From the NCBI GenBank assembly GCA_008087055.1, contig VIEA01000001.1, forward strand, positions 136,514 through 200,513: a stretch of DNA of 64,000 nt. Reading direction: 5' to 3'. The notes under the pieces are model-generated. The model did not search any database, was not told the DNA's origin, and saw nothing but the letters and a program-made list of their open reading frames with translations. A program made the position numbers and the translations under genes. Origin of the DNA: Gammaproteobacteria bacterium LSUCC0096 (GTDB lineage Bacteria; Pseudomonadota; Gammaproteobacteria; Pseudomonadales; Litorivicinaceae). Positions 33,702 to 54,142 of this stretch are shown here, piece after piece; within the stretch, counting starts at the first letter, position 1; every line of letters begins with the position of its first letter.

Positions 33702-34085
33702 ATGAAATTGTTTGAAAACCCATTCGGAATCCATGAGCAGGCGGTCTCTGTTCGTAATAAGCGAATGGAGTTGATCGCAGCAAATATTGCAAACGCCGAT
33801 ACACCGCATTTTAAGGCGCGTGATCTGGATTTTAAGAAGATCTTAGCGTCATCTGACCCAGCGCCAATGGCTGCAACAAACGTACGTCATTTTGGGACTG
33901 GAGAGACAGAGAACCCGAGTGGTCTGGTCTATCGTGTGCCCTATAACTCATCGGTGGATGGCAACACGGTAGAAATTGCAGTTGAACAAGCGCAATACGG
34001 TCAAGCAGCTGCTGATTATCAAGCAACGCTTCAGTTTCTAGAAAGTCGAATTTCCGGAATTCGGAAATCGCTGCGTGGTGAATAA
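33702..34085 (+). CDS. flgB: Flagellar proximal rod protein FlgB
   Basis: 127 residues. RMELIAANIANADTPHFKARDLDFKK is the rod-protein N-terminal signature (ANN-A-T/P-GF type), and the C-terminal helix follows YGQAAADYQATLQFLESRI. FlgB forms part of the proximal rod with FlgC and FlgF after FliE. Ordinary length. First gene of the flgB operon. Confidence 0.96.
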   Translation: MKLFENPFGIHEQAVSVRNKRMELIAANIANADTPHFKARDLDFKKILASSDPAPMAATNVRHFGTGETENPSGLVYRVPYNSSVDGNTVEIAVEQAQYGQAAADYQATLQFLESRISGIRKSLRGE

Positions 34086-34096
34086 GGAGAGTTCTG

Positions 34097-34519
34097 ATGC
34101 TTAAGAATGTATTTGGAATCGCTGGAACGGCGTTGAATGCGCAAACGATCCGGATGAACACCACAGCCTCAAACTTGGCGAACGCGGGTTCGGTTTCTGG
34201 AAATGAAGACGAGGCTTATCGAGCTAAACGCCCAGTTTTTCGAGCGCTCGTAGACCAGGCTGATCTCAACCAAGGCTTTAAGAGTTTGGGCGGTGTCAAG
34301 GTGAATGAAATCGTCGATACCACAGATCCCGTGCGTCAAGTCCACGATCCCGGCAATCCTGAGGCGAATGAAGAAGGATTTATTTGGTTATCGAACGTGA
34401 ATGAAGTCACAGAAATGGTTGAAATGGTTGCAGCCTCTCGATCGTTCCAAAACAACGTTGAAGTCGTCAACACAGCCAAGCAGCTGGTCATGCGCACATT
34501 AGATATTACGAAGGCCTGA
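34097..34519 (+). CDS. flgC: Flagellar proximal rod protein FlgC
   Basis: 140 residues. N-terminal GIAGTALNAQTIRMNTTASNLANAGSV and C-terminal NVNEVTEMVEMVAASRSFQNNVEVVNTAKQLVMRTLDI are classic FlgC. Conserved VKVNEIVDTTDPVRQVHDPGNP lies between. Starts 11 nt after flgB, with GGAGAG upstream. Normal length. Confidence 0.97.
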   Translation: MLKNVFGIAGTALNAQTIRMNTTASNLANAGSVSGNEDEAYRAKRPVFRALVDQADLNQGFKSLGGVKVNEIVDTTDPVRQVHDPGNPEANEEGFIWLSNVNEVTEMVEMVAASRSFQNNVEVVNTAKQLVMRTLDITKA

Positions 34520-34521
34520 TT

Positions 34522-35259
34522 ATGTCTGAAATTTCACTCGCAAATACTGGAATCATGACGACGAAGGAGTACGACGAGTCGCAATTGATCTCGAGTGCCG
34601 CCGACGACACATTGGATCGGAATGCGTTTCTCACACTGTTGACGACGCAATTACAGAATCAGAACCCTTTGGATCCAATGAAAAACGAAGCTTTCGTTGC
34701 GCAATTGGCTCAGTTCTCACAATTGGAAGGAATTACAAACATGTCTACATCGCTATCTGATGTAGCCAATGTGATTAAGTCAGACCGGATTTTGGCTGGT
34801 GCAAACCTTGTCGGCAAATCGGTCTTTGGGCAGACAGGCCAAATCGAAACTGATGGATCAACGCCATCTGCAATCGAATTTGAACTTCCTTATGGGGCTG
34901 AACAAGTTGAAGTCGGCATTTATGACCCAGCATCCGGTTCGTTGATTCGCTCTATGGTCGTTGGACCTCAAAGTTCCGGTGTCGTTGAGATGGCCTGGGA
35001 CGGAGTTATGGCAAACGGATCAGCAGCGCCTGCTGGGTCCTACATTATTCGAGGAAATGTTGTTGTCGGCGGAAATTCCCAAGAGGCTATTCCATCGACT
35101 TATTCCAAGGTGAAAACAGTGTCTTGGGATGCTCTTAATTCAGATCTGAATCTTAATCTTGCTGGCGGGGTATCAATCCCAATGGCAAACGTGTCTCGCA
35201 TTGGACAAGAGTCATCCACTGCAACTAATTCAACCGAAACCGTGACCGCTGGAGAATAA
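34522..35259 (+). CDS. flgD: Flagellar hook scaffold protein FlgD
   Basis: 245 residues, ordinary for FlgD. The N-terminal motif DRNAFLTLLTTQLQNQNPLDPM and AQLAQFSQLEGITNM is diagnostic. The Ig-like/FLG domain includes YGAEQVEVGIYDPASGSLIRSM and the Gly/Trp segment VVEMAWDGVMANGSAAPAGSY. FlgD caps the growing hook and falls away when it is complete. Of note: it has normal size while its client FlgE is nearly three times normal. Confidence 0.96.
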   Translation: MSEISLANTGIMTTKEYDESQLISSAADDTLDRNAFLTLLTTQLQNQNPLDPMKNEAFVAQLAQFSQLEGITNMSTSLSDVANVIKSDRILAGANLVGKSVFGQTGQIETDGSTPSAIEFELPYGAEQVEVGIYDPASGSLIRSMVVGPQSSGVVEMAWDGVMANGSAAPAGSYIIRGNVVVGGNSQEAIPSTYSKVKTVSWDALNSDLNLNLAGGVSIPMANVSRIGQESSTATNSTETVTAGE

Positions 35260-35262
35260 GCA

Positions 35263-38200
35263 ATGTCGTTCTTTACCTCATTAACTGGTCTTAATGCTGC
35301 AACCACGCAGTTGGCTGTGACATCAAACAATATTGCGAACTCGGGGACGACCGGCTTTAAGCGATCGCGCTCGGACTTCGGTGATATTTTTGCAACATCA
35401 CCACTTCAGAAAGCGTCTACCGTTGTGGGTCAGGGTACCGCTCTGAAGCAAGTAACTCAGGAATTTTCTCAGGGCAACATTGTCTTGTCTGGTAACTCTC
35501 TTGACTTGGCGGTTACTGGTGAAGGTTTCTTCCCAATGCAGTCTGCAGATGGGCAGTCACTCTACACTCGAAATGGTTCATTCTTGCTCGACGATAGAAA
35601 CACGGTTGTGAACTCAGCAGGTCAGTTTCTTCAAGTGGCGTCGGTTGACTCCCTGGGTAAAGCAGACTTTGAAGCGGATTTGGTTCAATTACAAATTGCA
35701 CCGCAAACCGTTGGCGAAGCGATAGCGACTTCAGCGATTGATTTTGAAATCAATTTCCCAGGAGATTCAGAGCCGGTCTATGAAACCGACCCTGAGACTG
35801 GAGCTCAATCGATTGTCGATTTCAATCCAAACGATCCGAACACCTACGCAAAGTCCGCTGCAATCACAATCTATGATGCAAACGGTGAAGACTTCTTGTT
35901 GACCTTCTATTACAGAAGAACTCAGGTGGCCACTTCAGAAAAGCCTGAAAGTAAATGGCAAACGCACATTCTTCTGAATGACCAAGAACTCACTCCAACG
36001 CTGTCTCAGGCGACTGACTCAGCTGGGAATAAGCTGTTCGTCAATAAGTACGGTGTTATCAAAACAGAAAATGATAAAGAAGTTAGTGGGTTCACAACAA
36101 AGACATTCTTCAAAAAGTACAACCTTGATGACCTGGGCCCCGTTATTCAGTCTACGCCAGCAACAGCGATTGGTTCGATTGTAGATGGTCTGGAATATCA
36201 AAAAGGAGCTGAAGGCGTTCAGTTCTCCGCAACGGAATCAGAGTACACATTTGCTGCATCGGACTTAGGTGAACTCGAGCATGGCGGAGTCATAAGCTTC
36301 GATATCTCTGTAGACGGTGGAACAGCGGTTGCTATTCAGGCTTCTTTTACTGAAAAGCCTACGTTGACTGAACTCGCTCGCGCTGTCGATGATGTTTTGG
36401 CTTCTACAGCTGGAACAGAGAACGTCTACGCCTCAGTCGTGAACGGCAAGCTTGTTTTGAAAAATAAAGATGGTGCTTCTACGACTGTGTCTAACATGGA
36501 AGCGAAGGCAGTCGCATCGATTACCCCAACTATTGGGACTGGTGGTACGGCGCTGGCAAACGCGTCAGATATTACCATCTCCAGTGGTTCGACAGGATTC
36601 TTGGCTGATGATACTTATACGATTTCTTTTGCTGCAGCGACTGATGGTTCAGCCTCGAAGCGTAATGTGCTGATTAAAGACTCGAGCGGAGCCACCGTCG
36701 ATACAGTAGCGAATGTCGATGACACAGCTACTTCAGTCACTTTCCCCGCTCAATCCGGAAAGTTCGGTGCGTTTACGATAGCTCTAGGCGAAGACGATAC
36801 CTTATCTAAATTCGATGAGACTAACGGCTCAATCGCCTTAGAAGTTCTCGTTGGAGCATCCACCGTTCTAACTGGTGGTGCGACCACAGTGACTGGAAGT
36901 TCGGCTCCCGATTTGACTAATGCGTTCAGTCTGCTGATCGATGAGGATCTCGATAATCCTGTCGCTAACCCGGTATCGATTGATCTTTCAGCGCTGAATG
37001 ATGTGACCAAGAATTTAAGCGGTCAGGAAGTTGCTGAAATTATGACGAGCGAGATCAATCGCCAGCTCGGTGATGGACGCTACTTCGATCTATCAAATGC
37101 AACGTATCAGAAGTTCACTGTCAGTTTGAACGGAGTTGACCATAACGTATCAATCAGCTCCGGAAGTTATACGCCAGAAACACTGGCTCAAGAAATTCAG
37201 GATCAATTACGGTCAAGTGCTGATGCTCGAATTGATGTGAAATATAACTACGCTCAAAAGCAGTTTACGTTTAAAACACCAGATCTTACTGATGTGTTGT
37301 CGCTCAAAAATACGGGAACAAACGTCAACACTCTATTTGGACTGAGTTCTCAAGCTCGAGTCTTGTCTGTTGATCCAGCTACTGGTGTTCCCGGTGCTGA
37401 GGTCATACCTCAAGGAACGTTCATCAGACCAGAGGTTCAGCAGCGAACTGGTATTAAAGTTGAGTTTTTCCCGAACTCAGAAGCTGGTGCAACCGACGGA
37501 TATTTCCAGATCTCATCTGGTACAACCGGCGACGATTCATCGATTCAGGTGAGTGATGTTTCTGCCACTGCGCTTTCATTCTTTGGATTTGATGTGGATG
37601 CAGCGACTGTGGACGCCCCATTGGCGGTTGGTAAGGCATCTGGTGACTCGGCAGTGAGGGGGGTTTCCTCAACTGCTGCAAAAGTATATGGAACGCCGAT
37701 CCAGTTTGATCCGGATGAGACGTTTACCGTCGATGACCTATCGAATGAATTTACGATCACGGTCGATAACGTCACTGAGACATTTAATTTGTCGACAGGT
37801 GATTACAATCTCAACTCGTTCATTGATGCACTTGAGTTACGAATTAACTCCATGGCCGACGCTAATGGGAACAGTATCTCAGGCGCCAAGGTTGAGTACG
37901 ACGAAACCTTGGGCGTTTTCACAATAACCTCAGGCACAACAGGTGATGATTCTTTCGTTCAGGTGGAAGGGTCTCCGAAGTTTGGTCTTAATGATTTGGG
38001 CTCATCGGTCGGTTCAACAGGTACGTTCCGTCGACCTGTCGCCGAGACATCAACAGCTAACAATCAGACCGTTTACGTCCAGTTGGAGCAAACTGAAGGC
38101 GTCGCCCCATCCGATAAAATATTCACGGAATATGATCGTGACCCTGATACGACTGCGCCTGAAATGCCGACAGATGCCGATGGCTTGGACTCAGAACCTG

Positions 38201-38751
38201 AGTGGCGTCCTCTGTTCCTTGATAAGGGTGAATTGACTTTCGATACAGCGGGCAAGCTAGTTTCACCACTGAACGGTATTAATCTTCAAGATGTGATCGT
38301 TGGTGCTGAAGAGATCTCAATTGACTATGCGGGATCAACTCAGTTCACAGGTGATTTCTCGGTTAATACTCAATCGCAAGATGGGCAACCTAACGGCTCA
38401 TTAGTATCTGTTGATATTGCTGATGACGGTCTAGTGACAGCTTCATACTCAAATGGTACGCAGGATCTTAAAGGAAAAATCGTACTTGCCACTTTCTCGA
38501 CACCGAATGGTTTGCGTCAGTTAGGTGACTCAACCTTCCTAGAATCAACGGATTCGGGGGTTGCAACACTTGGTGAACCGGGTGGCGCTGGGTTTGGCAC
38601 GATCCGTGCAGGTGCACTGGAAAGGGCCAATGTTGATTTGACATCAGAGCTGGTTGACCTGATTACCGCGCAGCGGAACTTCCAGGCCAACGCAAAAGCG
38701 ATTGAAACGTCATCAACCTTGACCTCCACGATTATTAACATCAGGAGCTAA
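35263..38751 (+). CDS. flgE: Giant flagellar hook protein FlgE (1162 residues)
   Basis: The N-terminus (SLTGLNAATTQLAVTSNNIANSGTTGFKRSRSDF) and the C-terminus (ERANVDLTSELVDLITAQRNFQANAKAIETSS) are ordinary FlgE rod/hook helices, so the core is intact. Typical FlgE has 400-450 residues; here about 700 extra residues sit between. They are Thr/Ser/Asp/Ala-rich, without cysteine, and beta-rich in appearance. A duplicated piece is visible: ISSGTTGDDSSIQVSD at about residue 749 and ITSGTTGDDSFVQVEG at about 891. The frame is uninterrupted. FlgE forms the universal joint; insertions would lie on the outer hook surface (D2 and beyond). Confidence 0.95.
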   Translation: MSFFTSLTGLNAATTQLAVTSNNIANSGTTGFKRSRSDFGDIFATSPLQKASTVVGQGTALKQVTQEFSQGNIVLSGNSLDLAVTGEGFFPMQSADGQSLYTRNGSFLLDDRNTVVNSAGQFLQVASVDSLGKADFEADLVQLQIAPQTVGEAIATSAIDFEINFPGDSEPVYETDPETGAQSIVDFNPNDPNTYAKSAAITIYDANGEDFLLTFYYRRTQVATSEKPESKWQTHILLNDQELTPTLSQATDSAGNKLFVNKYGVIKTENDKEVSGFTTKTFFKKYNLDDLGPVIQSTPATAIGSIVDGLEYQKGAEGVQFSATESEYTFAASDLGELEHGGVISFDISVDGGTAVAIQASFTEKPTLTELARAVDDVLASTAGTENVYASVVNGKLVLKNKDGASTTVSNMEAKAVASITPTIGTGGTALANASDITISSGSTGFLADDTYTISFAAATDGSASKRNVLIKDSSGATVDTVANVDDTATSVTFPAQSGKFGAFTIALGEDDTLSKFDETNGSIALEVLVGASTVLTGGATTVTGSSAPDLTNAFSLLIDEDLDNPVANPVSIDLSALNDVTKNLSGQEVAEIMTSEINRQLGDGRYFDLSNATYQKFTVSLNGVDHNVSISSGSYTPETLAQEIQDQLRSSADARIDVKYNYAQKQFTFKTPDLTDVLSLKNTGTNVNTLFGLSSQARVLSVDPATGVPGAEVIPQGTFIRPEVQQRTGIKVEFFPNSEAGATDGYFQISSGTTGDDSSIQVSDVSATALSFFGFDVDAATVDAPLAVGKASGDSAVRGVSSTAAKVYGTPIQFDPDETFTVDDLSNEFTITVDNVTETFNLSTGDYNLNSFIDALELRINSMADANGNSISGAKVEYDETLGVFTITSGTTGDDSFVQVEGSPKFGLNDLGSSVGSTGTFRRPVAETSTANNQTVYVQLEQTEGVAPSDKIFTEYDRDPDTTAPEMPTDADGLDSEPEWRPLFLDKGELTFDTAGKLVSPLNGINLQDVIVGAEEISIDYAGSTQFTGDFSVNTQSQDGQPNGSLVSVDIADDGLVTASYSNGTQDLKGKIVLATFSTPNGLRQLGDSTFLESTDSGVATLGEPGGAGFGTIRAGALERANVDLTSELVDLITAQRNFQANAKAIETSSTLTSTIINIRS

Positions 38752-38776: not shown

Positions 38777-39544
38777 ATGGATCGTTTGATATTCACAGCG
38801 AATATGGCGATGTCGGAATACCGACTGGATCGGCAGAACATGACGCATGAACTTGCGAACGTGTCGACACCCGGATTTAAGAAAGCATTTCAGGTGGCTA
38901 ATCGTCCGATCCGTACGGAGGGTGACGGTTTCGACACGCGCTATTTACCGCGTGCAGTGACGTCCCCTTTAATTGACTTATCTCCCGGTCCACGGTCTCT
39001 GACTGCGAATCCACTTGATGTTGCGATGGATAATCGGACTCTTTTGCCTGTGCAGGCAGATAACGGCGATCTAGCGTGGACACGTCGTGGCGATTTACGA
39101 CTAGATCCCGAAGGTTTTCTGAGAACAGGCGAGGGGCATTTAGTGCTAGATCAGTCCCTTAAGCCTTTGCAGTTACCTCAAGGGTCGGTGATTTATGAAA
39201 TTGCGGGTGACGGGACAATTTCTGTTCTTGATCCTGCGAACCCTGCGGCAGGCTCTCAACAAATTGCTGCCTTAGGTATCCGTGATGCTACCGGTGTAGA
39301 TATCGCGCGTCGTGAAGATGGTTTATTCATGCCAATTTCAAGCACGGAAGACCGTAAAGATTTTACCCCTGGAACGGGGGTTGCCTCGTTGACTCCCGGA
39401 TCTCTTGAGGGTTCTAACGTGAGCACAGTTCATACGTTGGTCAAATTTATTGATCACATGCGCTCATTTGAGATGCAAACCAAGATCATTCGAGAAATGA
39501 AAGATAACGACACCAGCGGCGAAAGCATGCTGCGGTTGTCATAG
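38777..39544 (+). CDS. flgF: Flagellar proximal rod protein FlgF
   Basis: 255 residues. N-terminal DRLIFTANMAMSEYRLDRQN and VSTPGFKKAFQVANRP, the basal rod middle domain (AWTRRGDLRLDPEGFLRTGEG) and C-terminal SNVSTVHTLVKFIDHMRSFEMQTKII mark FlgF. Normal length. It starts 25 nt after flgE and ends 10 nt before flgG. The N-terminal motif is less exact than in FlgG, as is usual for FlgF. Confidence 0.95.
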   Translation: MDRLIFTANMAMSEYRLDRQNMTHELANVSTPGFKKAFQVANRPIRTEGDGFDTRYLPRAVTSPLIDLSPGPRSLTANPLDVAMDNRTLLPVQADNGDLAWTRRGDLRLDPEGFLRTGEGHLVLDQSLKPLQLPQGSVIYEIAGDGTISVLDPANPAAGSQQIAALGIRDATGVDIARREDGLFMPISSTEDRKDFTPGTGVASLTPGSLEGSNVSTVHTLVKFIDHMRSFEMQTKIIREMKDNDTSGESMLRLS

Positions 39545-39554
39545 GAGACAGTAG

Positions 39555-40340
39555 ATGGAAGCGTCACTTTGGGTTTCTAAAACAGGCCTCGATGCGCAGC
39601 AGATGCGCATGAGTGTGATTTCTAACAACCTAGCTAACGTCAATACTGTTGGCTTTAAGCGTGATCGCGCTGTCTTCGAAGACTTGTTATATCAAAACAT
39701 CCGTCAAGCGGGTGGATCTACCGGGGGTGACAATATCGCGCCAACTGGTCTGATGATTGGTACCGGTGTCCGGATTGTATCGACTGAAAAATTGCATATG
39801 CAGGGTTCGATGATCCAAACCAAAAATGCTCTTGATTTTGCGATTCAGGGGGAGGGGATGTTTCAGGTGCTTCAGCCTGATGGAACGCTCGCCTATACCC
39901 GCGACGGGTCTTTCAAATTATCAGTGGACCGTGAATTAGTCACGGCGAACGGGATGCCGATTCAGCCGTCGATTGTTATCCCGGCTAATGCTGAATCCAT
40001 CAGTGTTGGCGAGGATGGCACTGTAACCATCCAACCGTATGGCAATGCTGAAGAGCAAGTTGTTGGTCAGATGCAGTTGGTTCGATTTGTGAATTACGCT
40101 GGTCTTGAACCGATGGGTAAAAATTTGTACCGCGAAACGTCTGCGTCTGGAACGCCGGTTGTTAGTGCGCCCGATACGGATGGCGCTGGTCGCGTTGCAC
40201 AAGGCTCTTTAGAGGCAGCGAACGTGAACGTTGTTGAAGAGATGGTCAATATGATCGAGACACAACGTGCCTATGAAATTAACTCAAAAGCGATCTCGTC
40301 GGTTGACTCGATGCTTCGCTTCTTGAACCAGAACTTGTAG
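39555..40340 (+). CDS. flgG: Flagellar distal rod protein FlgG
   Basis: 261 residues, the near-invariant FlgG length. SLWVSKTGLDAQQMRMSVISNNLANVNTVGFKRDRAVFEDL, the middle FAIQGEGMFQVLQPDGTLAYTRDGSF, and ANVNVVEEMVNMIETQRAYEINSKAI are full matches to the family pattern. FlgG forms the distal rod that passes through the P and L rings. Its fixed length suggests a normal rod and periplasm width, unlike the expanded hook. Confidence 0.98.
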   Translation: MEASLWVSKTGLDAQQMRMSVISNNLANVNTVGFKRDRAVFEDLLYQNIRQAGGSTGGDNIAPTGLMIGTGVRIVSTEKLHMQGSMIQTKNALDFAIQGEGMFQVLQPDGTLAYTRDGSFKLSVDRELVTANGMPIQPSIVIPANAESISVGEDGTVTIQPYGNAEEQVVGQMQLVRFVNYAGLEPMGKNLYRETSASGTPVVSAPDTDGAGRVAQGSLEAANVNVVEEMVNMIETQRAYEINSKAISSVDSMLRFLNQNL

Positions 40341-42161: not shown

Positions 42162-42632
42162 ATGACTGACGCGATCGGACCTAAATCATCATACGACTTT
42201 GCGGGTCTTGGCGAACTTAAGGCCAAGGCAGCGAGTAATGGTCAAGATGATGCTGCAATCAAAAAAGCAGCGCAGCAGTTTGAGGCGATGTTCCTTCAAA
42301 TGATGATGAAGTCGATGCGCGCGACTGTCGAAAAAGGCGGCCTGTTTGACTCAGCGTCTTCAGAAACTTTTGAACAAATGTATGACCAGCAAATTGTGAT
42401 GGCGATGTCTGAGCGCGGTTCGACTGGTCTTGCACAAATGGTCGAGAAGTTTATTCGCCAATCGTATGGTCAGATCGATGCGATGGAAGGCCAAAAATTT
42501 TTACTTGATGGTCAAAAGAAAGACGCACTTCCCCTAGTAGATAAATCGGATGCTTTCAAACTTCCTGAAGGGGCGACTCAACAATTTTTGCTGAACCGTA
42601 ATCGGTTCTTGCTCGGTGGAGGTGAGTCATGA
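42162..42632 (+). CDS. flgJ: Rod-assembly protein FlgJ, rod-binding domain only
   Basis: 156 residues. The N-terminal FlgJ domain is clear: KKAAQQFEAMFLQMMMKSMRATVE, then SSETFEQMYDQQIVMAMSERGSTGLAQMV. The C-terminal glucosaminidase domain found in gammaproteobacterial FlgJ (total about 300 residues or more) is absent; only a 60-residue hydrophilic tail follows. The stop overlaps the flgK ATG by 4 nt, so this is a true short gene rather than a frameshift product. A separate peptidoglycan hydrolase is needed to let the rod pass; none is seen in this window. Confidence 0.93.
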   Translation: MTDAIGPKSSYDFAGLGELKAKAASNGQDDAAIKKAAQQFEAMFLQMMMKSMRATVEKGGLFDSASSETFEQMYDQQIVMAMSERGSTGLAQMVEKFIRQSYGQIDAMEGQKFLLDGQKKDALPLVDKSDAFKLPEGATQQFLLNRNRFLLGGGES

Positions 42633-45600
42633 CAGACCTTCTCTCTATCGGAGCCAGTGGTATCAATGTCTATAAGCGCGCTCTTTCAACTGTATCCAAC
42701 AACATCGCGAACATGGGCACGGAAGGATATAGCAGGCAAGTCACTGACATTAAGCAAACAGATCCGACGGAATCTGGTGGCAGTTTTATTGGCAACGGCG
42801 CTTATTTTGATCGTGTCTCCCGTCAGTACGATGCGTTCTTAGAGTCATCGTTACAACAGGCGACAGCCGATCTTGAATCGCAGGGTGCTTCTGTCGAATA
42901 CACCAACAGACTTTTGGATGTGATTGGTGACGAAAAGATTGGAGCGACTTCAGCGCTCACTCAGTTTTTTGCGGCTGCCAAAGCTCTTTCCACCGATCCT
43001 GCATCAACAGCCCTTCGTGGTGCGATGTTGAGAGACGCAGAGCAATTAGTATCTCGTTTCAATGGTTTATCTGCTGAGTTTGATTCGTTAAACGATCAAG
43101 CGTTTTCTGCGATGGAAGCTGACGTTAAATCATTGAATGGTTTAGCTGAGCAAATTGCGTCAGTGAATCGTAATTTGCTGAAGAAAAAGCTGGAGAAAGA
43201 TCAGTCTCCACAGCTTCTCGATCAACGCGATCAGTTATTGAGAGATATCAGTCAATATGCCGGCATCACGACTAATGTAGACAGCCAAGGTTTGGTGACG
43301 GTTTCCCTTGGGCAGTCGACCAAGAAAGGGCTTCTTGTGAAAGGGGTTGATGCGTTTCAGTTATCAGTTTCTCAGCCTGACCCTCAATCTTCAGCACTCG
43401 CATTTGAGGTCAAGGGCGGTATCGAGAACGAGACGCTGTCATCAGTTCTCTCAGGCAGTATTTCTGGGTATGCGAATTTTATTGAAAACACTCTGACCCA
43501 GGTTCGTAGCCAACTCAACAATCTTGTCGGTGTATTGGCGAATGAAGTGAATGCTATTCAAACCACGGGCTTGGATGCATTTGGTGATCAAGGCGCTGAT
43601 TTCTTCCAGATTGAACCAGGAGTTTTGATCGATAAAGGTGCATCTCGTGGTGATTTTGAAGTGCTTTCATCGGTGACAGATATTGAACAACTTCAGCCAG
43701 GGTCTTACGCATTCACTTGGAATGCGGCCAGCCAATCTTGGGTTGCTGATTCGTCGGTAAAAGGTGCTCAAAGTAGTTTAGATGCCAGTGTCTCAATCGA
43801 TGGTCTACTCTTGAGATCTTCTGGACAGCCATTGGATGGAGATCGTTTTGTTGCGACGGTCTTTAGTGATCCAGCGTCCGGATTTCAACTTGGCATCACT
43901 GATGGCGCTCAGATAGCGACAGCATCATTGTTCCGGATTACGCCGGCAACACAGAATTCAGGGTCGGTAAATCCTCAGATTACTTATGAAGAGCCAACGA
44001 TTTCTGAGCCAGTGCTTAAGCCAGGGTCACAAACAGTTGCTGCTTCTTCGTTATCCCCGGTGGGTGTTGTTGAAGCAGGGCAATCGCAACTGAGCTTGAC
44101 TCTTGATCCCGCTCGCGATGCATCGCTTGCAATCAATTTGATAACCCGTGACGGTCGTCATTTGGTCGGCGGCACGGGAGTGAGTGATTTCGGTACACTC
44201 GTAGAAAGTTCTGACTTTTTCGCCACCAATGCCAGCTATACAGATCTTTATTTGAATAAGAGCGGTTCCTCGAACAATAGCTATAACGATTTTAATATTG
44301 AAATAGGAGCCTTTGGCAGTACAACCTCTGTTACAGAGGTATTGCCGATTTCTGGCGAAGTAGTTGCTCTTCCATCATCGGTCGATTTCACTTCGGGCTA
44401 TCTTGAATTTACAGCCCAATTGTCTGAAGAGAATATGGCTTTGGGTTTCCAGCAGAGTCAGTTTAAAGATACGACAGCTGGTGCTATTTCGATCGTTGGG
44501 ACTTCGATATATCGAGGTCTCGGCTCTACAACTGAAAAAATTGCTGACATTCAAGCTCCAAGCGGACCATCCAATCCATCTTATGACACGGTTAAGGTGT
44601 CTTTTGTCGATGATTTATCTTCTGTCGAAGTATCTGTTTTAGATCAAATAGCGAATCGACTTACATTCTCAAACGGCTCCGATCTGACGGCAACGAATTA
44701 TCATGTCTACTCGTCAGTCAGTGTAAAGGCTGTGTCTGGAGATGAGTTGAGTCAGTGGGCGGGAAGCTTCTCAATTAATACAGAAGAGCTTGTAAAAGCT
44801 GGCGCAATTAATCCGGTCGAAAAATATGTTTCCACTTTGCGCGGCAAAGATATCCCAGCAGCATCTAGCGGCTTGGGTGATGTCATTGAAGCATCAAAAG
44901 TATCAGTAAACGGTTCGGTCTTGGGTGCTTTGACCGTAGGCCAATCGGGTATCGATGGATACGGGAAGCTTTCTGTGCTCGACATCAAAAATTGGATTGA
45001 ATCATCAAGCCCTTCTGGCGTTACCGTTTCTGTCCAAAACAATATTTTAATTAATCCTGCGAACGTTCAACTGCTGGGTGCCGGTCTCACTATCAATGGT
45101 CATGATGTCATTTCGGTGGACAGTGGTACGAACACACAATTTTCAGATTTGGATGATTTGGTTGATTCAATCAACGCAAAGTCTGCAGTGACGGGTGTTG
45201 CTGCATCGATCGATTTAAATGGTGATTTGAGGTTGTCTGACCCAAGTGGTGGGAATATTCAGTTGGGCTCGTCAGTCGATAATTTGAGTGCAAATTTATT
45301 AGGTGTCTCGAATGGTGTGTTTGTGGGCCAGTACGAAATTGAACAGATATCGACGTCAGAGACACCGCTAAAAGTTGAGCTGACTCCAAGTGGAGCTCCT
45401 TCTGACCTTAATGCTGTTGGGCTCGACACAACGGTCATTGTTTCTGGCGAGATTACTGAAGATATTGGTGTATTCATTCAAGGAAGTGACGGAACATCAA
45501 CGTCAACATTGACCACTGCACTGACTACCTCGGGCGAGAGTTTTTCTGACGGAGTGCGCAGCCGCGTCTATGAATTAGAATTCGTGAATAGCTCTACTTA

Positions 45601-46084
45601 CCGAATTACTGATCAGGCAACGAATACCATCATGGCTGAGCGCGCCTATGCTGGCGAAACTACTATTAAATTCCAGGGAATGGTGATCGAGCTTGATCGT
45701 CCAGGTGAGGCTGGTGATAGCTTCTCGATTGATGGCAATAACACTGGACCGAATCAAACATTTGATGCGCAGGGTAATAATTCAAATATTTTAAGAATGG
45801 TTGCTCTTGAGAGTGAGCCCGTGGTCAACGGAAGCATGTCGATGACAGAGGCATATCTCGATTTTGTTGGGGATGTCGGGAATCAGGCAACTCAAGCACA
45901 AATTTCACAAGATGCATTATCAATCGTTAAAGATCAGGCTATCGAGGCACGTGACCGGGTTTCTGGCGTCAACCTTGATGAAGAGGCAGCGGATCTGATC
46001 CGTTTTCAGCAGGCTTACCAAGCATCGGCACAAGTTATGCAAGTCGCTACGAAGTTGTTCGACACGATGTTGCAGGTTCGTTAA
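42629..46084 (+). CDS. flgK: Giant hook-filament junction protein FlgK (1151 residues)
   Basis: N-terminal SIGASGINVYKRALSTVSNNIANMGTEGYSRQV and C-terminal SGVNLDEEAADLIRFQQAYQASAQVMQVATKLFDTML are standard FlgK. The usual length is 450-650; here about 500-600 residues are added in the middle, Ser/Thr/Asp/Val-rich and without cysteine, as in FlgE. The stretch GLTINGHDVISVDSGTN and VDSINAKSAVTGVAASIDLNG resemble Flagellin_IN motifs. FlgK is the first hook-associated protein, exported with FlgN. Reading frame intact over 3.4 kb. Confidence 0.95.
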   Translation: MTDLLSIGASGINVYKRALSTVSNNIANMGTEGYSRQVTDIKQTDPTESGGSFIGNGAYFDRVSRQYDAFLESSLQQATADLESQGASVEYTNRLLDVIGDEKIGATSALTQFFAAAKALSTDPASTALRGAMLRDAEQLVSRFNGLSAEFDSLNDQAFSAMEADVKSLNGLAEQIASVNRNLLKKKLEKDQSPQLLDQRDQLLRDISQYAGITTNVDSQGLVTVSLGQSTKKGLLVKGVDAFQLSVSQPDPQSSALAFEVKGGIENETLSSVLSGSISGYANFIENTLTQVRSQLNNLVGVLANEVNAIQTTGLDAFGDQGADFFQIEPGVLIDKGASRGDFEVLSSVTDIEQLQPGSYAFTWNAASQSWVADSSVKGAQSSLDASVSIDGLLLRSSGQPLDGDRFVATVFSDPASGFQLGITDGAQIATASLFRITPATQNSGSVNPQITYEEPTISEPVLKPGSQTVAASSLSPVGVVEAGQSQLSLTLDPARDASLAINLITRDGRHLVGGTGVSDFGTLVESSDFFATNASYTDLYLNKSGSSNNSYNDFNIEIGAFGSTTSVTEVLPISGEVVALPSSVDFTSGYLEFTAQLSEENMALGFQQSQFKDTTAGAISIVGTSIYRGLGSTTEKIADIQAPSGPSNPSYDTVKVSFVDDLSSVEVSVLDQIANRLTFSNGSDLTATNYHVYSSVSVKAVSGDELSQWAGSFSINTEELVKAGAINPVEKYVSTLRGKDIPAASSGLGDVIEASKVSVNGSVLGALTVGQSGIDGYGKLSVLDIKNWIESSSPSGVTVSVQNNILINPANVQLLGAGLTINGHDVISVDSGTNTQFSDLDDLVDSINAKSAVTGVAASIDLNGDLRLSDPSGGNIQLGSSVDNLSANLLGVSNGVFVGQYEIEQISTSETPLKVELTPSGAPSDLNAVGLDTTVIVSGEITEDIGVFIQGSDGTSTSTLTTALTTSGESFSDGVRSRVYELEFVNSSTYRITDQATNTIMAERAYAGETTIKFQGMVIELDRPGEAGDSFSIDGNNTGPNQTFDAQGNNSNILRMVALESEPVVNGSMSMTEAYLDFVGDVGNQATQAQISQDALSIVKDQAIEARDRVSGVNLDEEAADLIRFQQAYQASAQVMQVATKLFDTMLQVR

Positions 46085-46094
46085 GGGGATCTAA

Positions 46095-48065
46095 ATGACA
46101 GTTTCAACGAGTCTATTGTTTAGTCGCGCTGTTGGTTTGATGAATCAAAGTCAGTCTGAGCTCGCCTCTATGCAGGAAAAGGTAGCAACTGGTAAACAAA
46201 TCGTTCGTCCGAGTGATGGTGCTGATTCTGCTGTTAACGTGGCTCGTCTTAAAAACATGATTGCCCAGTTTGATGGATATAAAGCGTCTCTGCAGTCAAC
46301 AGGCGATCGGCTCAAAGTTGAAGAGGCTTATCTCCAAAGCGCGACGGATGTCCTTTCTTCTCTCAAGCAACTGAGTATCCAGGGTGCTAACGGTACACTT
46401 GCTCCTATTGATCGATTGGCAATTGCAAAAGAAGTTGATGAGTTAACTTCTGAAATGATCAATATCGCGAACGGTACAGATGCTAACGGTAATTTCTTGT
46501 TTGGTGGATCGCGGAGTCAAACTGCTCCCTATCAATTGGACGCTGATGGAGTTGCTCGGTATCAAGGTGATATCTTTCAGTCGAATTTGGACTTTACTTC
46601 ACAACGACGTTCCGCTGTTGGCCGAACAGGCCTAGAAATTTTCGAGCCTGTATTAACCGGCGAATACACCGAGGCTCTAAACGAAATTCAACGTATTGAG
46701 TTCGCTGGAGCGGTTGAGGTTGGTGATTCTTATACCATTAAAATTGATGGTATTTCTTTTGATCACACAGTTGTTGTGGGTGAGGATCTCGGTGATGTAG
46801 TCGATTCACTGGTTGCCGATATCAATGCCGCTAGGGATGCTGGAACGTTGCCTTTTGTGAGGGCATCTAACAATGGAATCGATGATCTTGTGATTGAGGG
46901 TTTGGGTGGAACACAACATGACATCCAGCTATCAACAGCGAATACCTCCGAATCTCTGAAAGCTGGGTCAGTTACAGCCCTAAATCCTGGTGATGAAATT
47001 GATGATTCCGAGCTTGAATTTGAGTCGCGTTCACTCGATTTTTCATCAGTTTCGTTTACATCGGGATCAAATGATATCGATGCAGAGGTTACCTTAACAA
47101 TCGGCAACACAGCATTGGTGACTTCTGGAACAAGCTTTTCTGATCTTCAAGCATTGGTCGATGATTTAACTGACCATGCCGACTATGCAAGTGCCGAATT
47201 TACTTTGTCTGTTGATCAAACTGGCGACCAGTTGATTATCGATTGGAAAGATGCGAAGGCAGTTCCCGCTAGCACAAAAGCGCTTCTGTCAGGCGGTGGT
47301 CTTGCAGCCGCTGATCTCATTGATGTTGCCGATAACCATTTGACTGTGTTGAATGAAGGTCTTGATCTTGACTACGGCATCAAGCTTGAGGGACCTTTCG
47401 AGAAAGGTGATAGAGTCAGCATAAATTTCGAAGGGGTATCCTTTGAATACGTTGTGACCGGCCTAGAAGATGGGGCTTCCCAACCCGCGGATACCGTTTC
47501 TTTGACAAATGTTCGCACTGCTGTCATTGCAGGGATCAACTCCGATACATCAATGTCTGCCAAGCTTGTCGCTAGTCAATACGAAGTGACCTCTCCGATT
47601 ATTCGTTTTGTGCCTCAGAATCTTGCTAATCCAGGAGTTGTTGGGGCATCTATGATTGATCGTGGAGATGTCAACAACCAGTCGATGAATATATTCACGG
47701 ATCAAGTTCCGGCGCCATCGATGCCAGAGCGCATTGAATTTTTTGAGGTACTTAAAAATCTTTCTAATGTATTGAAGGCTGATGACCAACCAGGAATACA
47801 GGCAAGTATTGATCAAATTAGTCAGATGATTGACTCAATGACTTTGGGCTTGGCCGATATTGGTGCCGAAATGAAGACCATCGATGATGAGATCTCAATC
47901 AACGAAGATCTAAAGCTGCAGCTTCAATCAGCGCTATCAAGCGAGGAGGATCTCGATTATGCGACGGCGATTACTAAGCTGCAGGCAAAGATGCTTTCAC
48001 TGGAAGCAGCTCAGTCGAGTTTTGCAAAAATCTCGCAGTTAAGTTTGTTCGATTACATCCGATAA
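46095..48065 (+). CDS. flgL: Large hook-filament junction protein FlgL (656 residues)
   Basis: The N-terminus (VSTSLLFSRAVGLMNQSQSELASMQEKVATGKQIVRPSDG) and the C-terminus (LSSEEDLDYATAITKLQAKMLSLEAAQSSFAKISQLSLFDYI) are standard FlgL. Typical FlgL is 300-420 residues; extra beta-rich material lies between about 200 and 520. The NFLFGGSRSQTAPY segment is the family's central signature. FlgL sits between FlgK and the filament. It starts 10 nt after flgK with a GGGGAT ribosome site. Confidence 0.95.
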   Translation: MTVSTSLLFSRAVGLMNQSQSELASMQEKVATGKQIVRPSDGADSAVNVARLKNMIAQFDGYKASLQSTGDRLKVEEAYLQSATDVLSSLKQLSIQGANGTLAPIDRLAIAKEVDELTSEMINIANGTDANGNFLFGGSRSQTAPYQLDADGVARYQGDIFQSNLDFTSQRRSAVGRTGLEIFEPVLTGEYTEALNEIQRIEFAGAVEVGDSYTIKIDGISFDHTVVVGEDLGDVVDSLVADINAARDAGTLPFVRASNNGIDDLVIEGLGGTQHDIQLSTANTSESLKAGSVTALNPGDEIDDSELEFESRSLDFSSVSFTSGSNDIDAEVTLTIGNTALVTSGTSFSDLQALVDDLTDHADYASAEFTLSVDQTGDQLIIDWKDAKAVPASTKALLSGGGLAAADLIDVADNHLTVLNEGLDLDYGIKLEGPFEKGDRVSINFEGVSFEYVVTGLEDGASQPADTVSLTNVRTAVIAGINSDTSMSAKLVASQYEVTSPIIRFVPQNLANPGVVGASMIDRGDVNNQSMNIFTDQVPAPSMPERIEFFEVLKNLSNVLKADDQPGIQASIDQISQMIDSMTLGLADIGAEMKTIDDEISINEDLKLQLQSALSSEEDLDYATAITKLQAKMLSLEAAQSSFAKISQLSLFDYIR

Positions 48066-48092: not shown

Positions 48093-49457
48093 GTGGTTGA
48101 TACGAACATTCTGAACACATTGGGAGCTGGTTCTGGTCTCGATACGATTGCGATGGTGGATGCCATTGTTGCTGCTGAGAAGGCGCCTAAAGAAGCGTTA
48201 CTAAATTCGAAAATAGAATTATCGGAAGCCAAGATTTCGGGCTTAGGTGCGCTCAAGTCATCACTTGGAACTCTGCAAAGTAGTTTCGACACTCTAGCTG
48301 ACCCTGAGTTTTTTAAGGCGAATATTTCTGTCGACGCAAATACCTATGCTTTTACAACATCTCCATCTGAAGGTGCTGAGCCAGGGGTGTATTCAGTGAC
48401 TGTGCAACAGCTTGCGGCTCCTCAGCGCGAAGTAAGTGAGGGGTTTGGTGCTGTTGATGTAGATTTAAATAGCGGATCGCCATTGATGGTAAATATTCAG
48501 GTTGGTGATGATCCAGAGTTTGGTGTGTATGCCTCGCCACCAACTCCAGAGGGAATAGCAGAAGCTATCGCGAACGCAGGCTCGGGACTATCTGCTCGGG
48601 TAGTGGATACTGGGGATGGCGATACTCCGTTTATCATTCTGATTACGGGACAAGAAGGATCTGATAATGCGTTTGAGGTATCAGTCAATGGAATGAATTG
48701 GTCCACGGTCAATGAAGCCCTTGATTCGAAGTTGACAGTGGATGGTGTGCAATTGACACGCCAGTCAAATCAAATCTCAGACGCAATCAATGGAGTTGAC
48801 TTGGATCTACTGATGACACAGGCCATGCCTGTTTCGGTTGTTGTAGAGCGAGATATGCAGCCTATCGAAGATGCTATTGTCGAATTGGTGGATTTATATA
48901 ATTCGTTTTTGGAAGTCACGACCATTTTGGGTGATAAATCATTATTTGATGCTGACGGTAGTGGCAGTCTGGCAGCCGACTCTACATTAAGGTTCGTTAA
49001 GCAAGCAATCCGCCGATCAATGACGGATTTGGTGGGCTCGGGTGTGATATCCAATATTTCCGACCTAGGGCTTAGCGCAAATTTAGATGGAACTGTCGAT
49101 GTTGATAGAGAGCGATTGACTGCGGTTTTGCAGTCTTCCGAGGCTGATGTTGCTGCTTTCTTTTCAGGGCTTGGTGAGAATACCGACAATGTTGATGGAT
49201 TTGCTGGAGCTGTTAGTTCGCGTATCGGGCAGATTATCGAAGATGGTGGAATAATCGACGGTAAAATTGATACAGCTGAAAATTCGGTTGATCGTTTCCA
49301 GGAGCAGCTTGAGAAGTTGGAGATGAGAATGGAGGCTGTTCGTGCTCGTTACATGATGCAGTTTACAGCGATGGAACAGGCGGTGGATCAGTTCAATTCA
49401 TTAAAAGACTCCCTCAAAACCCAGTTTGAGAACATGCCTTTCACAAATAAAAATTAA
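48093..49457 (+). CDS. fliD: Flagellar filament cap protein FliD
   Basis: 454 residues from a GTG start with AGGTGGAG at 48078-48085. N-terminal LGAGSGLDTIAMVDAIVAAEKAP, the middle with Flagellin_IN-type YSVTVQQLAAPQREVS and C-terminal coiled coil (VDRFQEQLEKLEMRMEAVRARYMMQFTAMEQAVDQFNSL) are typical. FliD pentamers or hexamers cap the filament tip and fold incoming flagellin. Normal length despite the very large flagellins. Also acts with FliS/FliT in regulation in some species. Confidence 0.96.
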   Translation: MVDTNILNTLGAGSGLDTIAMVDAIVAAEKAPKEALLNSKIELSEAKISGLGALKSSLGTLQSSFDTLADPEFFKANISVDANTYAFTTSPSEGAEPGVYSVTVQQLAAPQREVSEGFGAVDVDLNSGSPLMVNIQVGDDPEFGVYASPPTPEGIAEAIANAGSGLSARVVDTGDGDTPFIILITGQEGSDNAFEVSVNGMNWSTVNEALDSKLTVDGVQLTRQSNQISDAINGVDLDLLMTQAMPVSVVVERDMQPIEDAIVELVDLYNSFLEVTTILGDKSLFDADGSGSLAADSTLRFVKQAIRRSMTDLVGSGVISNISDLGLSANLDGTVDVDRERLTAVLQSSEADVAAFFSGLGENTDNVDGFAGAVSSRIGQIIEDGGIIDGKIDTAENSVDRFQEQLEKLEMRMEAVRARYMMQFTAMEQAVDQFNSLKDSLKTQFENMPFTNKN

Positions 49458-49515: not shown

Positions 49516-49902
49516 ATGGTCGATCAGGTTTCGAATTCGAATGTCTTGATTCAGGCTGCGTTAGAGTCAGGAAAAAAAGTACCTGTGGTTCCAGGATCTA
49601 ATCGAACCGCTAGTGCTGTTGAATCTAATGGTTCTGAGAGCGGACGCCCAATTGTCGAGACCATCTCGTATCAGGACGCATTGAAAGAGATAGATGCTGC
49701 GATAGCTAAGCTGAATGAGGTATTAGCTTCCAAGGATCATTCGATAAGATTCCGTCGTGATGAGACACTGAATCGTTCGATTATCACAGTCGTAAATGAC
49801 GATACCGGAGAAGTGGTTCGTCAGCTGCCCACTGATGAAATGTTGCAGGTTGCTCGTAATATTGAGAACCTCAAGGGAGTTTTAGTCAAAGAGTGGGTTT
49901 AA
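49516..49902 (+). CDS. flaG: FlaG family flagellar protein
   Basis: 128 residues. The C-terminal 75 residues are FlaG-like: LKEIDAAIAKLNEVLASKDHSIRFRRDETLNRSIITVVNDDTGEVVRQLPTDEMLQVARNI. The N-terminal 50 residues are Ser/Asn-rich and unconserved. FlaG is linked to filament length control in some polar flagellates. Usually it sits between flagellin and fliD; here it lies between fliD and a glycosyltransferase gene. Ribosome site GAGGGTGG before the ATG. Confidence 0.93.
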   Translation: MVDQVSNSNVLIQAALESGKKVPVVPGSNRTASAVESNGSESGRPIVETISYQDALKEIDAAIAKLNEVLASKDHSIRFRRDETLNRSIITVVNDDTGEVVRQLPTDEMLQVARNIENLKGVLVKEWV

Positions 49903-51586: not shown

Positions 51587-54142
51587 ATGGGTTTGGTAGT
51601 CAACACAAATGTGTCATCACTGATGACTCAAAAATCGGTTCAAGCTAATCAGTTGGACCTCAATCAAGCAATCGATCGCTTGAGTAGTGGTAAGCGAATC
51701 AATTCGGCGGCAGACGATGCGGCGGGATTATCAATCGCGAGCCGGATGGAAGCACAAGTGCGCGGCCTTGACCAGGCAGTCAGAAACGCCAATGACGGTA
51801 TTTCACTCGTTCAGGCTTCAGAAGGGGCGATGGAAGAAATCACAGCAATGCTCCAAAGAATGCGCGAACTGGCTGTCCAGGCGTCTAACGGGGTCTTAAC
51901 TGCAGAAGACCGCACTAACCTTCAAGAAGAAGTCTCAGCATTACAGGCTGAAATTGATCGCGTTGTGGATACAACGACTTTCAACAATCAAAAAGTCTTA
52001 GATGGTTCGTTCGGTAAGTCCTTGCAGATCGGAATGAATGCTGGTCAGACCGTTTCGGTAGACATCGCCAATTTGTCTGCATTGTCACTTGGCGGGGTCA
52101 CCGGCGCAGCCGACACTAACGCCATTGTGACTGCAAATGCTCGTGGTACAGAAGCAACTCCTACCGAAACGCGCCTAGACTTCAGCAACAACGATGATTA
52201 CACGTTCACGGTAATGTTCGAGGTTGATGGAAAAGAATATTCGTTTGCAATTGATGCTTCAGTCGAAGACGGTAGTGCCAAGCAAATCGTCGACGAAATC
52301 AATGACAAGTTGACCGGCAAGCCAGATGGTTACGATATTACAACGACAGCTACTACAGCGGTCGCTGGAACTGCAAACAGTGTGGTCGATCTCTCATCTG
52401 TTATCGAGGTTAGTTACGTCGGTAAGCAAGTGACTTTGAAAAACTTACAAGGCGGAGATATCAAGATCAGTCAGGGCGCTACAGTTTCTGTCGCAAGCGG
52501 AGACATTGCAGTAGCCGGTAATATCTCTGCTGGTGGAGGACAAGTGACTGTTACGTCTGTTGCCGGAGGAGCTAACTCTCAAAATGCGATTATCGGTGAT
52601 GATCGTTTCGCGACACGCACATTTGCGAATACTGGTAAAACGGGAACCGCTGCTGTTACTGCGGCAGATGCTGTGGCGACTGAGGTTGCGGTTAACTTCA
52701 GCGGCGCTACGATTGCTGCGTCGGGTGGTACAATTCAATTGATAATTGGTGGAACTACTGGGGCTTCGATTACCGTTGCCGCTAGTGCTACCGCCGCCAC
52801 TTTGGCATCTACAATTGCAACCAATGCCTCGGTGACTGGATTTACATTTAGTGCTTCAGGAAATGTGTTAACAGTTTCGAAAACGGATGGCACGGATTTT
52901 ACGTTTGATATCGCTGCAGGTAGTGTCGCTTCGGGCTCAACGCTCTCTGTCGCAGACACCGGAGGCGCATCAACTGCATTTTCGATAGGAACTGCTGCAA
53001 GCCTCTCGGGCGGTACAGAAGCTATCGAAGCAGTTGATGCAATTGATGGCGGCACAATGTACTTGGACTTCTTAGCAAACGATAAGTATACGTTTGAATT
53101 CGCTAACAGCTCAGGAACAGTTCTGTCTACAGCCATCAATCTTACGTATGAAGGAACTGCTGCGTCACTGACAGATGCTGCGACTACTATCAATACGGTG
53201 CTTCAATCAGCAGGTGGTACGTTCGACTTTACTGCAACAGTAGATGAAAACCGAATCAAGATCGTGGAAAACGGCGGTAATGCATTCAAGATCCAGAACT
53301 TTGCATCTGATGGGGCTGGCAAAGCTATTGCTTCAGTTGCATCTGGCCAGGCGAGTGGTGTCGAGGCTGTTTTACTTGATGACACTACTTACACAGGTAG
53401 CGTGATTACTAACGCAAATGGTGTGGCTACAGCAACTAAGCTTAACCTGACTACATTTGGCTCTGAAGACACGTATTCGTTCACCATCTCTGATGGCACA
53501 GCAACAGCGGTTGTCAATCCAACATTGCTTGACACAGCCGATGGAACTTCTGCTGCAGGATCTGCGGCAGATATGAAAAATGCTGTAGCAGTCGCTCTAG
53601 CACGTGCCGGCCTAGATGATGTGATTTCGGTTACCGCTAGCGCAGCAAATACTGCTGGTAACGCGACTGGTGACTTCACGCTTCAACTGACACATAAGCT
53701 GGGTTACAAAGTTACTATTGATGACTTTGCTTCAACAGGCGCTGGCCAAATGTTGGTTCAGGCAGGATCTGGATCTACTGGTACTGCGGCTTACTTGAAT
53801 GACAATTTGAATGGCGATTCAAATACGCAGGTAGTATCAAACGTCAACGTTGGATCACAAAGCCTCGCGAGCGACTCAATATCCATCCTTGATAGAGCGA
53901 TTGCGGACGTTGATAGTCAACGGTCTAAGCTTGGTGCGATTCAGAACCGCCTAGAGCACACTGTTAGCAACTTAACCAACATTTCGGTTAATACTTCTGC
54001 AGCGCAGTCTCGCATCATGGATGCTGACTATGCAGTTGAGTCTGCTAATCTAGCAAAAGCACAGATTATGCAGCAAGCAAGTGCGGCGATGCTCGCGCAA
54101 GCTAATGCATCTGGTCAAATTGTATTGTCACTATTGGGATAA
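51587..54142 (+). CDS. fliC: Giant flagellin 1 (851 residues)
   Basis: N-terminal D0/D1 is textbook: LVVNTNVSSLMTQKSVQ, LSSGKRINSAADDAAGLSIA, NDGISLVQASEGAMEEI and LQRMRELAVQASNG. The C-terminal D1/D0 (LGAIQNRLEHTVSNLTNISVN; AKAQIMQQASAAMLAQANA; IVLSLLG) is also intact. Between lies about 570 residues against about 200 in Salmonella-size flagellins, Ala/Thr/Gly-rich, with no cysteine. Three related pieces recur at about residues 198, 496 and 624, each with a D-x-Y-x-F core (NNDDYTFTV; ANDKYTFEF; SEDTYSFTI). A sigma-28 promoter and terminator make it a single-gene unit. It is related over its length to the next flagellin. Confidence 0.96.
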   Translation: MGLVVNTNVSSLMTQKSVQANQLDLNQAIDRLSSGKRINSAADDAAGLSIASRMEAQVRGLDQAVRNANDGISLVQASEGAMEEITAMLQRMRELAVQASNGVLTAEDRTNLQEEVSALQAEIDRVVDTTTFNNQKVLDGSFGKSLQIGMNAGQTVSVDIANLSALSLGGVTGAADTNAIVTANARGTEATPTETRLDFSNNDDYTFTVMFEVDGKEYSFAIDASVEDGSAKQIVDEINDKLTGKPDGYDITTTATTAVAGTANSVVDLSSVIEVSYVGKQVTLKNLQGGDIKISQGATVSVASGDIAVAGNISAGGGQVTVTSVAGGANSQNAIIGDDRFATRTFANTGKTGTAAVTAADAVATEVAVNFSGATIAASGGTIQLIIGGTTGASITVAASATAATLASTIATNASVTGFTFSASGNVLTVSKTDGTDFTFDIAAGSVASGSTLSVADTGGASTAFSIGTAASLSGGTEAIEAVDAIDGGTMYLDFLANDKYTFEFANSSGTVLSTAINLTYEGTAASLTDAATTINTVLQSAGGTFDFTATVDENRIKIVENGGNAFKIQNFASDGAGKAIASVASGQASGVEAVLLDDTTYTGSVITNANGVATATKLNLTTFGSEDTYSFTISDGTATAVVNPTLLDTADGTSAAGSAADMKNAVAVALARAGLDDVISVTASAANTAGNATGDFTLQLTHKLGYKVTIDDFASTGAGQMLVQAGSGSTGTAAYLNDNLNGDSNTQVVSNVNVGSQSLASDSISILDRAIADVDSQRSKLGAIQNRLEHTVSNLTNISVNTSAAQSRIMDADYAVESANLAKAQIMQQASAAMLAQANASGQIVLSLLG

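Follow-up and report, generated by a model that had tools for sequence, protein, structure and literature searches.

Outer domains of the junction protein FlgK and the size of the flagellar hook in an OM252 bacterium and its relatives

In the flagellar junction whose structure has been solved, FlgK touches the hook protein FlgE beneath it and FlgL on its upper side, and FlgL in turn touches FlgK and FliC; one core runs continuously through hook, junction and filament (parts of PMC12221982). For Campylobacter, divergence of FlgK towards a fit with the hook has been proposed (a passage in PMC5691160). The strain analysed here, LSUCC0096, is 'Ca. Halomarinus pommedorensis' of the OM252 clade, for which scanning electron microscopy indicated a possible polar flagellum (excerpts of PMC8269220). 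Its genome comprises 1,935,310 bases in 4 contigs, 1,442,657 of them in the contig of the window. We analysed 64,000 nucleotides of contig VIEA01000001.1 (positions 136,514 to 200,513), called the window below, in which a single gene run comprises flgB to flgL, fliD, flaG, a glycosyltransferase-like ORF and two flagellin genes.

Enlarged proteins in the LSUCC0096 locus

33702..35259, + strand: flgB, flgC and flgD, ordinary size, flgD slightly long
35263..38751, + strand: flgE, hook protein, 1162 aa
36022..38304, + strand: FlgE outer insertion, about residues 254-1014
38777..40340, + strand: flgF and flgG, rod proteins, ordinary size
42629..46084, + strand: flgK, 1151 aa; AF2 model with a mean pLDDT of 83.2 (good)
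43928..45766, + strand: FlgK outer insertion, about residues 434-1046 (profile positions), between Salmonella FlgK 439 and 451
45086..45235, + strand: Flagellin_IN motif of FlgK, residues 820-869 (PF07196, 24.8 bits, cut-off 22.7)
46095..48065, + strand: flgL, 656 aa; AF2 model with a mean pLDDT of 71.8 (weaker than the FlgK model)
46650..47729, + strand: FlgL outer insertion, about residues 186-545
48093..49457, + strand: fliD, cap, 454 aa, ordinary size
49516..49902, + strand: flaG, 128 aa, ordinary
51587..54142, + strand: fliC-like flagellin, 851 aa
54335..56998, + strand: second flagellin, 887 aa counted from ATG

Both junction proteins were identified by curated whole-protein scores: FlgK reached 276.5 bits with TIGR02492 (cut-off 170.75) and FlgL 228.3 bits with TIGR02550 (cut-off 127.2). 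The helical D1 of FlgK and both of its conserved ends also scored above cut-off (PF22638, 175 bits; PF00460; PF06429). The original prediction had put FlgK at about twice and FlgL at about one and a half times normal, and the measured sizes bear this out: FlgK is 2.1 times as long as the 553-aa Salmonella chain, and FlgL is 1.6 times as long as Legionella FlgL (411 aa) and 2.1 times as long as Salmonella FlgL (317 aa). Among 163 FlgL proteins, 65 measured 290-330 aa, 68 measured 390-430, 17 measured 490-540, one (that of the window) fell at 640-680, two at 750-800 and ten in between; the median was 409 aa in 106 outside the giant-hook clade described below. The window FlgL is the longest of 11 aligned FlgL proteins of its genus, in which lengths rise in steps (416, 522-528 and 656 aa) that correspond in the alignment to blocks of about 105-130 residues. 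The remaining axial proteins had been called ordinary; this holds for FlgB (127 aa), FlgC (140), FlgF (255), FlgG (261), FliD and FlaG, but start-corrected FlgD, at 218 aa, slightly exceeds the typical ~200. The length given for the second flagellin applies if the ATG at 54335 is the start; the mechanical GTG ORF gives 906 aa. Between flaG and the first flagellin gene lies a 493-aa ORF (49912-51393) that by eye combines TPR and glycosyltransferase-like parts. It had no match in NCBIfam and is perhaps a putative flagellin-modifying enzyme.

The extra residues sit in the interior of each enlarged protein. FlgK profile positions 6-433 and 1047-1149 aligned to Salmonella FlgK 8-439 and 451-553, and FlgL aligned to Legionella FlgL residues 3-191 and 313-411. 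With Salmonella FlgL, only the first part (Salmonella 3-190) was significant by sequence; the FlgL model spanned 303 of the 316 residues in the Salmonella FlgL structure. Residues 4-253 and 1015-1161 of FlgE aligned to a hook protein of 437 aa, in which 51 residues separate the two matching parts, and the flagellin matched an ordinary homologue at 2-180 and 732-851. Since both termini of each enlarged protein can be aligned to solved homologues of ordinary size, the tube core (D0/D1) looks normal, with the additions looking like outer domains placed between conserved ends.

Parts of the FlgK insertion resemble flagellin outer domains, with Z scores only moderately above background: model residues 490-935 resembled D2/D3 of P. 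aeruginosa FliC (Z 9.6, rmsd 3.5, 162 aligned) and residues 802-901 a flagellin outer domain (Z 9.5, rmsd 2.3, 89 aligned). The Flagellin_IN motif was present in 34 of 47 FlgK proteins of one alignment, its position being checked for the window FlgK only. In the FlgL insertion, the first module (about 186-285) was well modelled by AF2 and the remainder poorly; an internal repeat (192-230 and 420-458) was weak, with a probability of 65-69%.

We also considered that one domain had been copied among hook, FlgK, FlgL and flagellin. This idea was rejected, as profile-profile comparison of the outer regions of the window genus in six pairs gave a best probability of 1.2%. A profile of the FlgL outer module (~100 aa, built from 69 FlgL) matched 98 of 169 FlgK and 1 of 96 FliD, and gave zero matches in FlgE (146), FliC (130), FlgI (177) and FlgG (168). 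Since the profile missed 9 of the 11 genus FlgL proteins, that of the window included, the window FlgL modules cannot be assigned to this module family.

The ordinary cap had been regarded as a puzzle, for it must still fit a larger tube. It ceases to be one, as the additional residues do not fall in the conserved ends from which the tube core is built; with the core common to hook, junction and filament and the additions outside it, an ordinary cap is expected. FliD would thus dock as usual on the enlarged tube here. In 96 pooled loci, FliD ranged from 447 to 689 aa.

Length co-variation across relatives

Length measurements covered 114 locus sets. Besides the window, these were drawn from 12 genomes of its genus, one of which has a second locus, and from 100 loci of the order. 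The order loci belong to 99 genomes chosen by hand to sample many genera; of 214 genomes, the 157 that carried FlgI formed the pool. Independent contrasts were calculated on a tree of FlgF + FlgG + FlgH + FlgI, with significance from 5000 sign flips. Rows with ORFs running off the stretch or without a C-terminal match were dropped. Flagellin lengths were also obtained by genome searches, the longest per genome being used; flagellin rows were dropped for G006, G016, G017 and G020 (cut, absent or broken) and for G202, whose sole flagellin (274 aa, on another contig) was taken as a second system. One genome of the same family but another genus (G022; FlgK frame 658 aa) lay outside the locus set. 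For a second set, searching with the FlgK alignment of the window genus yielded 80 named loci, of which 10 repeats of the genus were left out; the choice of this set by FlgK similarity biases the FlgK range upwards, and only flagellins within the fetched stretch were counted.

In the order set, FlgE and FlgK lengths were strongly correlated (contrast r = 0.72, n = 93 loci, 0 of 5000 sign flips as large), also without the window genus (r = 0.75, n = 83). FlgE-FlgL gave r = 0.13 (n = 91, p = 0.41) and FlgE-FliC 0.37 (p = 0.19); FlgK-FlgL (0.32, p = 0.007) and FlgK-FliC (0.28, p = 0.001) were modest. In the same contrasts, FliD against four other proteins gave no p under 0.05, and control proteins showed small links (FlgD-FlgE 0.26, p = 0.003; FlgD-FlgK 0.29; FlgF-FlgE 0.24, p = 0.03). 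With FliC held, the partial FlgE-FlgK correlation was 0.71 (by ranks 0.62), and with FlgE held, that of FlgK-FliC was -0.04 (by ranks 0.18; n = 86 for both).

The second set (FlgE 779-1572 aa in 49 loci, FlgK 821-1498 in 63, median FlgL 306 in 57, median FliD 469 in 52) behaved similarly. FlgE-FlgK gave r = 0.77 (n = 45, p = 0.004), FlgE-FlgL 0.17 (p = 0.07), FlgK-FlgL -0.05 and FlgE-FliD -0.18 (p = 0.24; by ranks -0.33, p = 0.03). On a joint tree, FlgE-FlgK was 0.70 (n = 151, 0 of 5000 flips; leave-one-out 0.68-0.72), whereas FlgE gave 0.12 with FlgL, 0.00 with FliD, 0.08 with FlgJ, 0.00 with FlgH and 0.35 with FliC (p = 0.086), and FlgL-FliC was 0.07 and FlgK-FliD 0.04. FlgE is not the only protein with which FlgK co-varies, since links to FlgL (0.24, p = 0.007) and FliC (0.26, 0 of 5000 flips) remained on this tree. 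Enlargement in step, as the original prediction had it, thus stands strongly for hook and FlgK and modestly for FlgK with FlgL and flagellin; it falls for FlgE with FlgL, FlgE with FliD and FlgL with FliC. Coordination is mainly between the hook and the ring atop the hook, not across the entire outer wall.

The relation was also visible in absolute lengths: among 138 pooled loci, all 31 with FlgE of at least 1000 aa had FlgK of at least 918 aa. Loci with FlgE of 750-1000 aa had a median FlgL of 306 (n = 32) and a median longest flagellin of 414 (n = 23). In many loci a giant hook and a giant FlgK occur beside small flagellins and an FlgL of minimal length, as in the SAR92 locus L225 (FlgE 945, FlgK 998, FlgL 306, flagellins 286, 290 and 389 aa); this argues against selection for a single thick, coated hook-filament.

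Over short times the coupling of FlgE and FlgK is loose. Ten complete FlgK copies of the window genus measured 1149-1156 aa, the other nine being 46-48% identical to that of the window, while FlgE spanned 1046-1572, FlgL 416-655 and the longest complete flagellin 883-1678 aa (eight genomes). The window FlgL was enlarged with no change in FlgK length, and the two are not in step there. Seven genus relatives had flagellins of 1585-1678 aa, above the 1000-aa mark; shorter second flagellins were also found. On the joint tree, 27 shallow contrasts showed an FlgE change exceeding 5%; 15 of them left FlgK as it was, 11 changed it with the same sign and 1 with the opposite sign. A locus placed in the window genus (G004, L053) was of another flagellar type, with FlgE 434, FlgK 909, FlgL 308 and flagellin 268 aa, and likewise speaks for loose coupling. 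It grouped with G236, a genome outside the class, with support 1.0; a replacement, a second system and a stray contig are possibilities.

Independent variation of the lengths among relatives, named at the outset as the finding that would refute coordination, was therefore seen when FlgE was compared with FlgL or with FliD, and inside the genus, but not for the pair FlgE and FlgK.

Some genomes showed further peculiarities. In G020 (L034:14588-16547), the flagellin gene beside flgL was frameshifted into ORFs of 132 and 527 aa, possibly an error of the metagenome assembly; a tiny flagellin gene next to flgL was rejected here, as the frameshift splits a longer gene. Farther along the same contig (L035) lay two short but complete flagellin ORFs of 253 and 255 aa. 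G012 carried, besides its giant-hook set, a second partial flagellar set (L044, L045; FlgL 298, flagellin 269 aa). No FlgI match was found in G001, G002 and G009 of the window genus (genomes 92-98% complete), and flagella seem to have been lost in part of this genus.

Outside the order the link was weak. A rough table of 53 of 67 genomes gave a FlgE-FlgK rho of 0.22 (p = 0.11). By hand, 13 genomes had been removed in which usable matches were either multiple or missing, as had G332, whose FlgK lies close to the end of a contig; the lengths are open frames, some of them too long (G258: 865 vs 625 corrected). Thirteen start-corrected loci, ranked without a tree, gave 0.67 for FlgE-FlgK (p = 0.012) and 0.90 for FlgK-FlgL (p = 2e-5).

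Explanations for the relation of FlgE and FlgK

We see roughly even chances that FlgK serves as a collar loosely tracking the outer layer of the hook, that FlgL and the flagellins vary largely on their own and that the cap need not scale. The enlarged proteins keep what looks like a normal D0/D1 core and carry extra outer domains between their conserved ends. The FlgK ring, expected to have 11 subunits, would sit directly on the hook, and where the hook gains an outer layer, FlgK would tend, over long times, to gain one too. FlgL and the flagellins would gain and lose outer domains of their own largely independently, FlgL in units of about 105-130 aa, and a cap working on the core would have no need to scale. 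Direct packing of FlgK on the hook would then cause the size matching. A matched FlgK is not strictly needed, however, because Salmonella carrying the extra domains of Campylobacter FlgE was reported as fully motile (PMC5069557).

The main rival to the collar is shared inheritance of a locus type: a locus with big hook and big FlgK would have had few origins and then been passed on vertically and by transfer, with no functional matching. The 11 window-genus loci and 58 second-set loci formed one clade of 69 (support 1.0) that contains Litoricola-like, Porticoccaceae and Limnohabitans records; as this giant-hook clade crosses order lines, transfer of the flagellar locus between orders is suggested. 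The many shallow FlgE changes with FlgK unchanged fit inheritance as well. The 58 loci, however, were picked by FlgK similarity, which favours a single clade, and giant pairs also occur outside it (FlgE/FlgK 1461/1021 in G071, 1232/992 in G061 and 1193/1003 in G033). Moreover, contrasts remove simple shared descent and the correlation persisted, with or without the window genus; we consider inheritance alone an unlikely explanation. FlgJ is short in the window (42162-42632) and measured 101-178 aa in this clade, against a median of ~317 elsewhere; presumably the muramidase part is absent from the short form.

Alternatively, exposure to phage, grazers, glycosylation or adhesion could diversify the outer domains of each protein separately, FlgE and FlgK appearing linked through their shared cell-proximal exposure. 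The wide variation of FlgL, FliC and FliD at a given hook size agrees with this, as does the lack of cross-homology among the outer regions of the four proteins in the genus profile comparison. The contrast between the strong FlgE-FlgK link and the much weaker links of FlgL and flagellin, equally exposed, is not predicted, and we judge this explanation improbable too.

That selection favouring a thick or coated tube enlarged all outer wall proteins in a coordinated way, from hook to filament, as originally predicted, is very improbable: FlgE, FlgK, FlgL and the flagellins are indeed all large in the window, raw rank correlations in the order set were positive (FlgE-FliC 0.75, FlgE-FlgL 0.61, FlgK-FlgL 0.58), the modest FlgK-FlgL and FlgK-FliC links survived contrasts and giant flagellins give thick filaments in two marine gammaproteobacteria (portions of PMC6248924), but contrasts left little between FlgE and FlgL or between FlgL and FliC and no significant link between FlgE and FliC, loci with FlgE of 750-1000 aa had short FlgL and flagellins and the four lengths varied separately within the window genus, so that coordination survives for FlgE and FlgK and is largely refuted for the whole wall.

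A wider form of the collar reading is somewhat doubtful. In many bacteria, FlgK would be a size-matched adaptor whose outer layer evolves together with that of the hook; pelagic bacteria such as OM252, SAR92 and Limnohabitans would carry a heavily sleeved hook and collar on an ordinary or minimal filament, and the joint type would have spread between orders as a locus.

Comparison with known junctions

The window proteins resemble those of the Salmonella junction. The FlgK model matched 2d4y with Z 35.2 (416 aligned, rmsd 8.2) and 9go6 with Z 33.1 (528 aligned, rmsd 7.8), and the FlgL model matched 9go6 with Z 23.4 (303 aligned, rmsd 3.2); 2d4x is a further structure from this junction. They differ by ~613 extra residues of FlgK between Salmonella 439 and 451 and by several hundred of FlgL past the part matching Salmonella 3-190. 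FlgK of Burkholderia pseudomallei (4ut1, 673 aa; Z 34.2, 496 aligned, rmsd 9.4) also has an added outer domain (a passage in PMC5691160), but a single one, compared with the much larger insertion in the window FlgK. As in giant flagellins of marine gammaproteobacteria, outer flagellin domains are enlarged; the window flagellins (851 and 887 aa), however, stay below the size that defines giants (>1000 aa; both points from portions of PMC6248924). The term 'FlgK' is absent from the main text of that paper, and in open PMC papers we found no report of a FlgE-FlgK length relation.

A further counterpart is Campylobacter jejuni (5jxl, 5xbj, 9gsx), whose hook has extra outer domains and whose junction is said to have changed alongside (a passage in PMC5691160). 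Its chains measure 851 aa for FlgE, 608 for FlgK and 750 for FlgL, sizes that speak against close matching of FlgK to the hook, whereas in the window much of the enlargement falls on FlgK. Once corrected, the finding amounts to a variant of the known junction; the trend seen earlier joined too many parts and missed the strongest pair. The corrected pattern identifies the junction layer that tracks the hook best and points to LSUCC0096 as a cultured strain in which the joint could be imaged. What had been proposed for one organism, a FlgK fitted to the Campylobacter hook, becomes a pattern measured over 151 loci.
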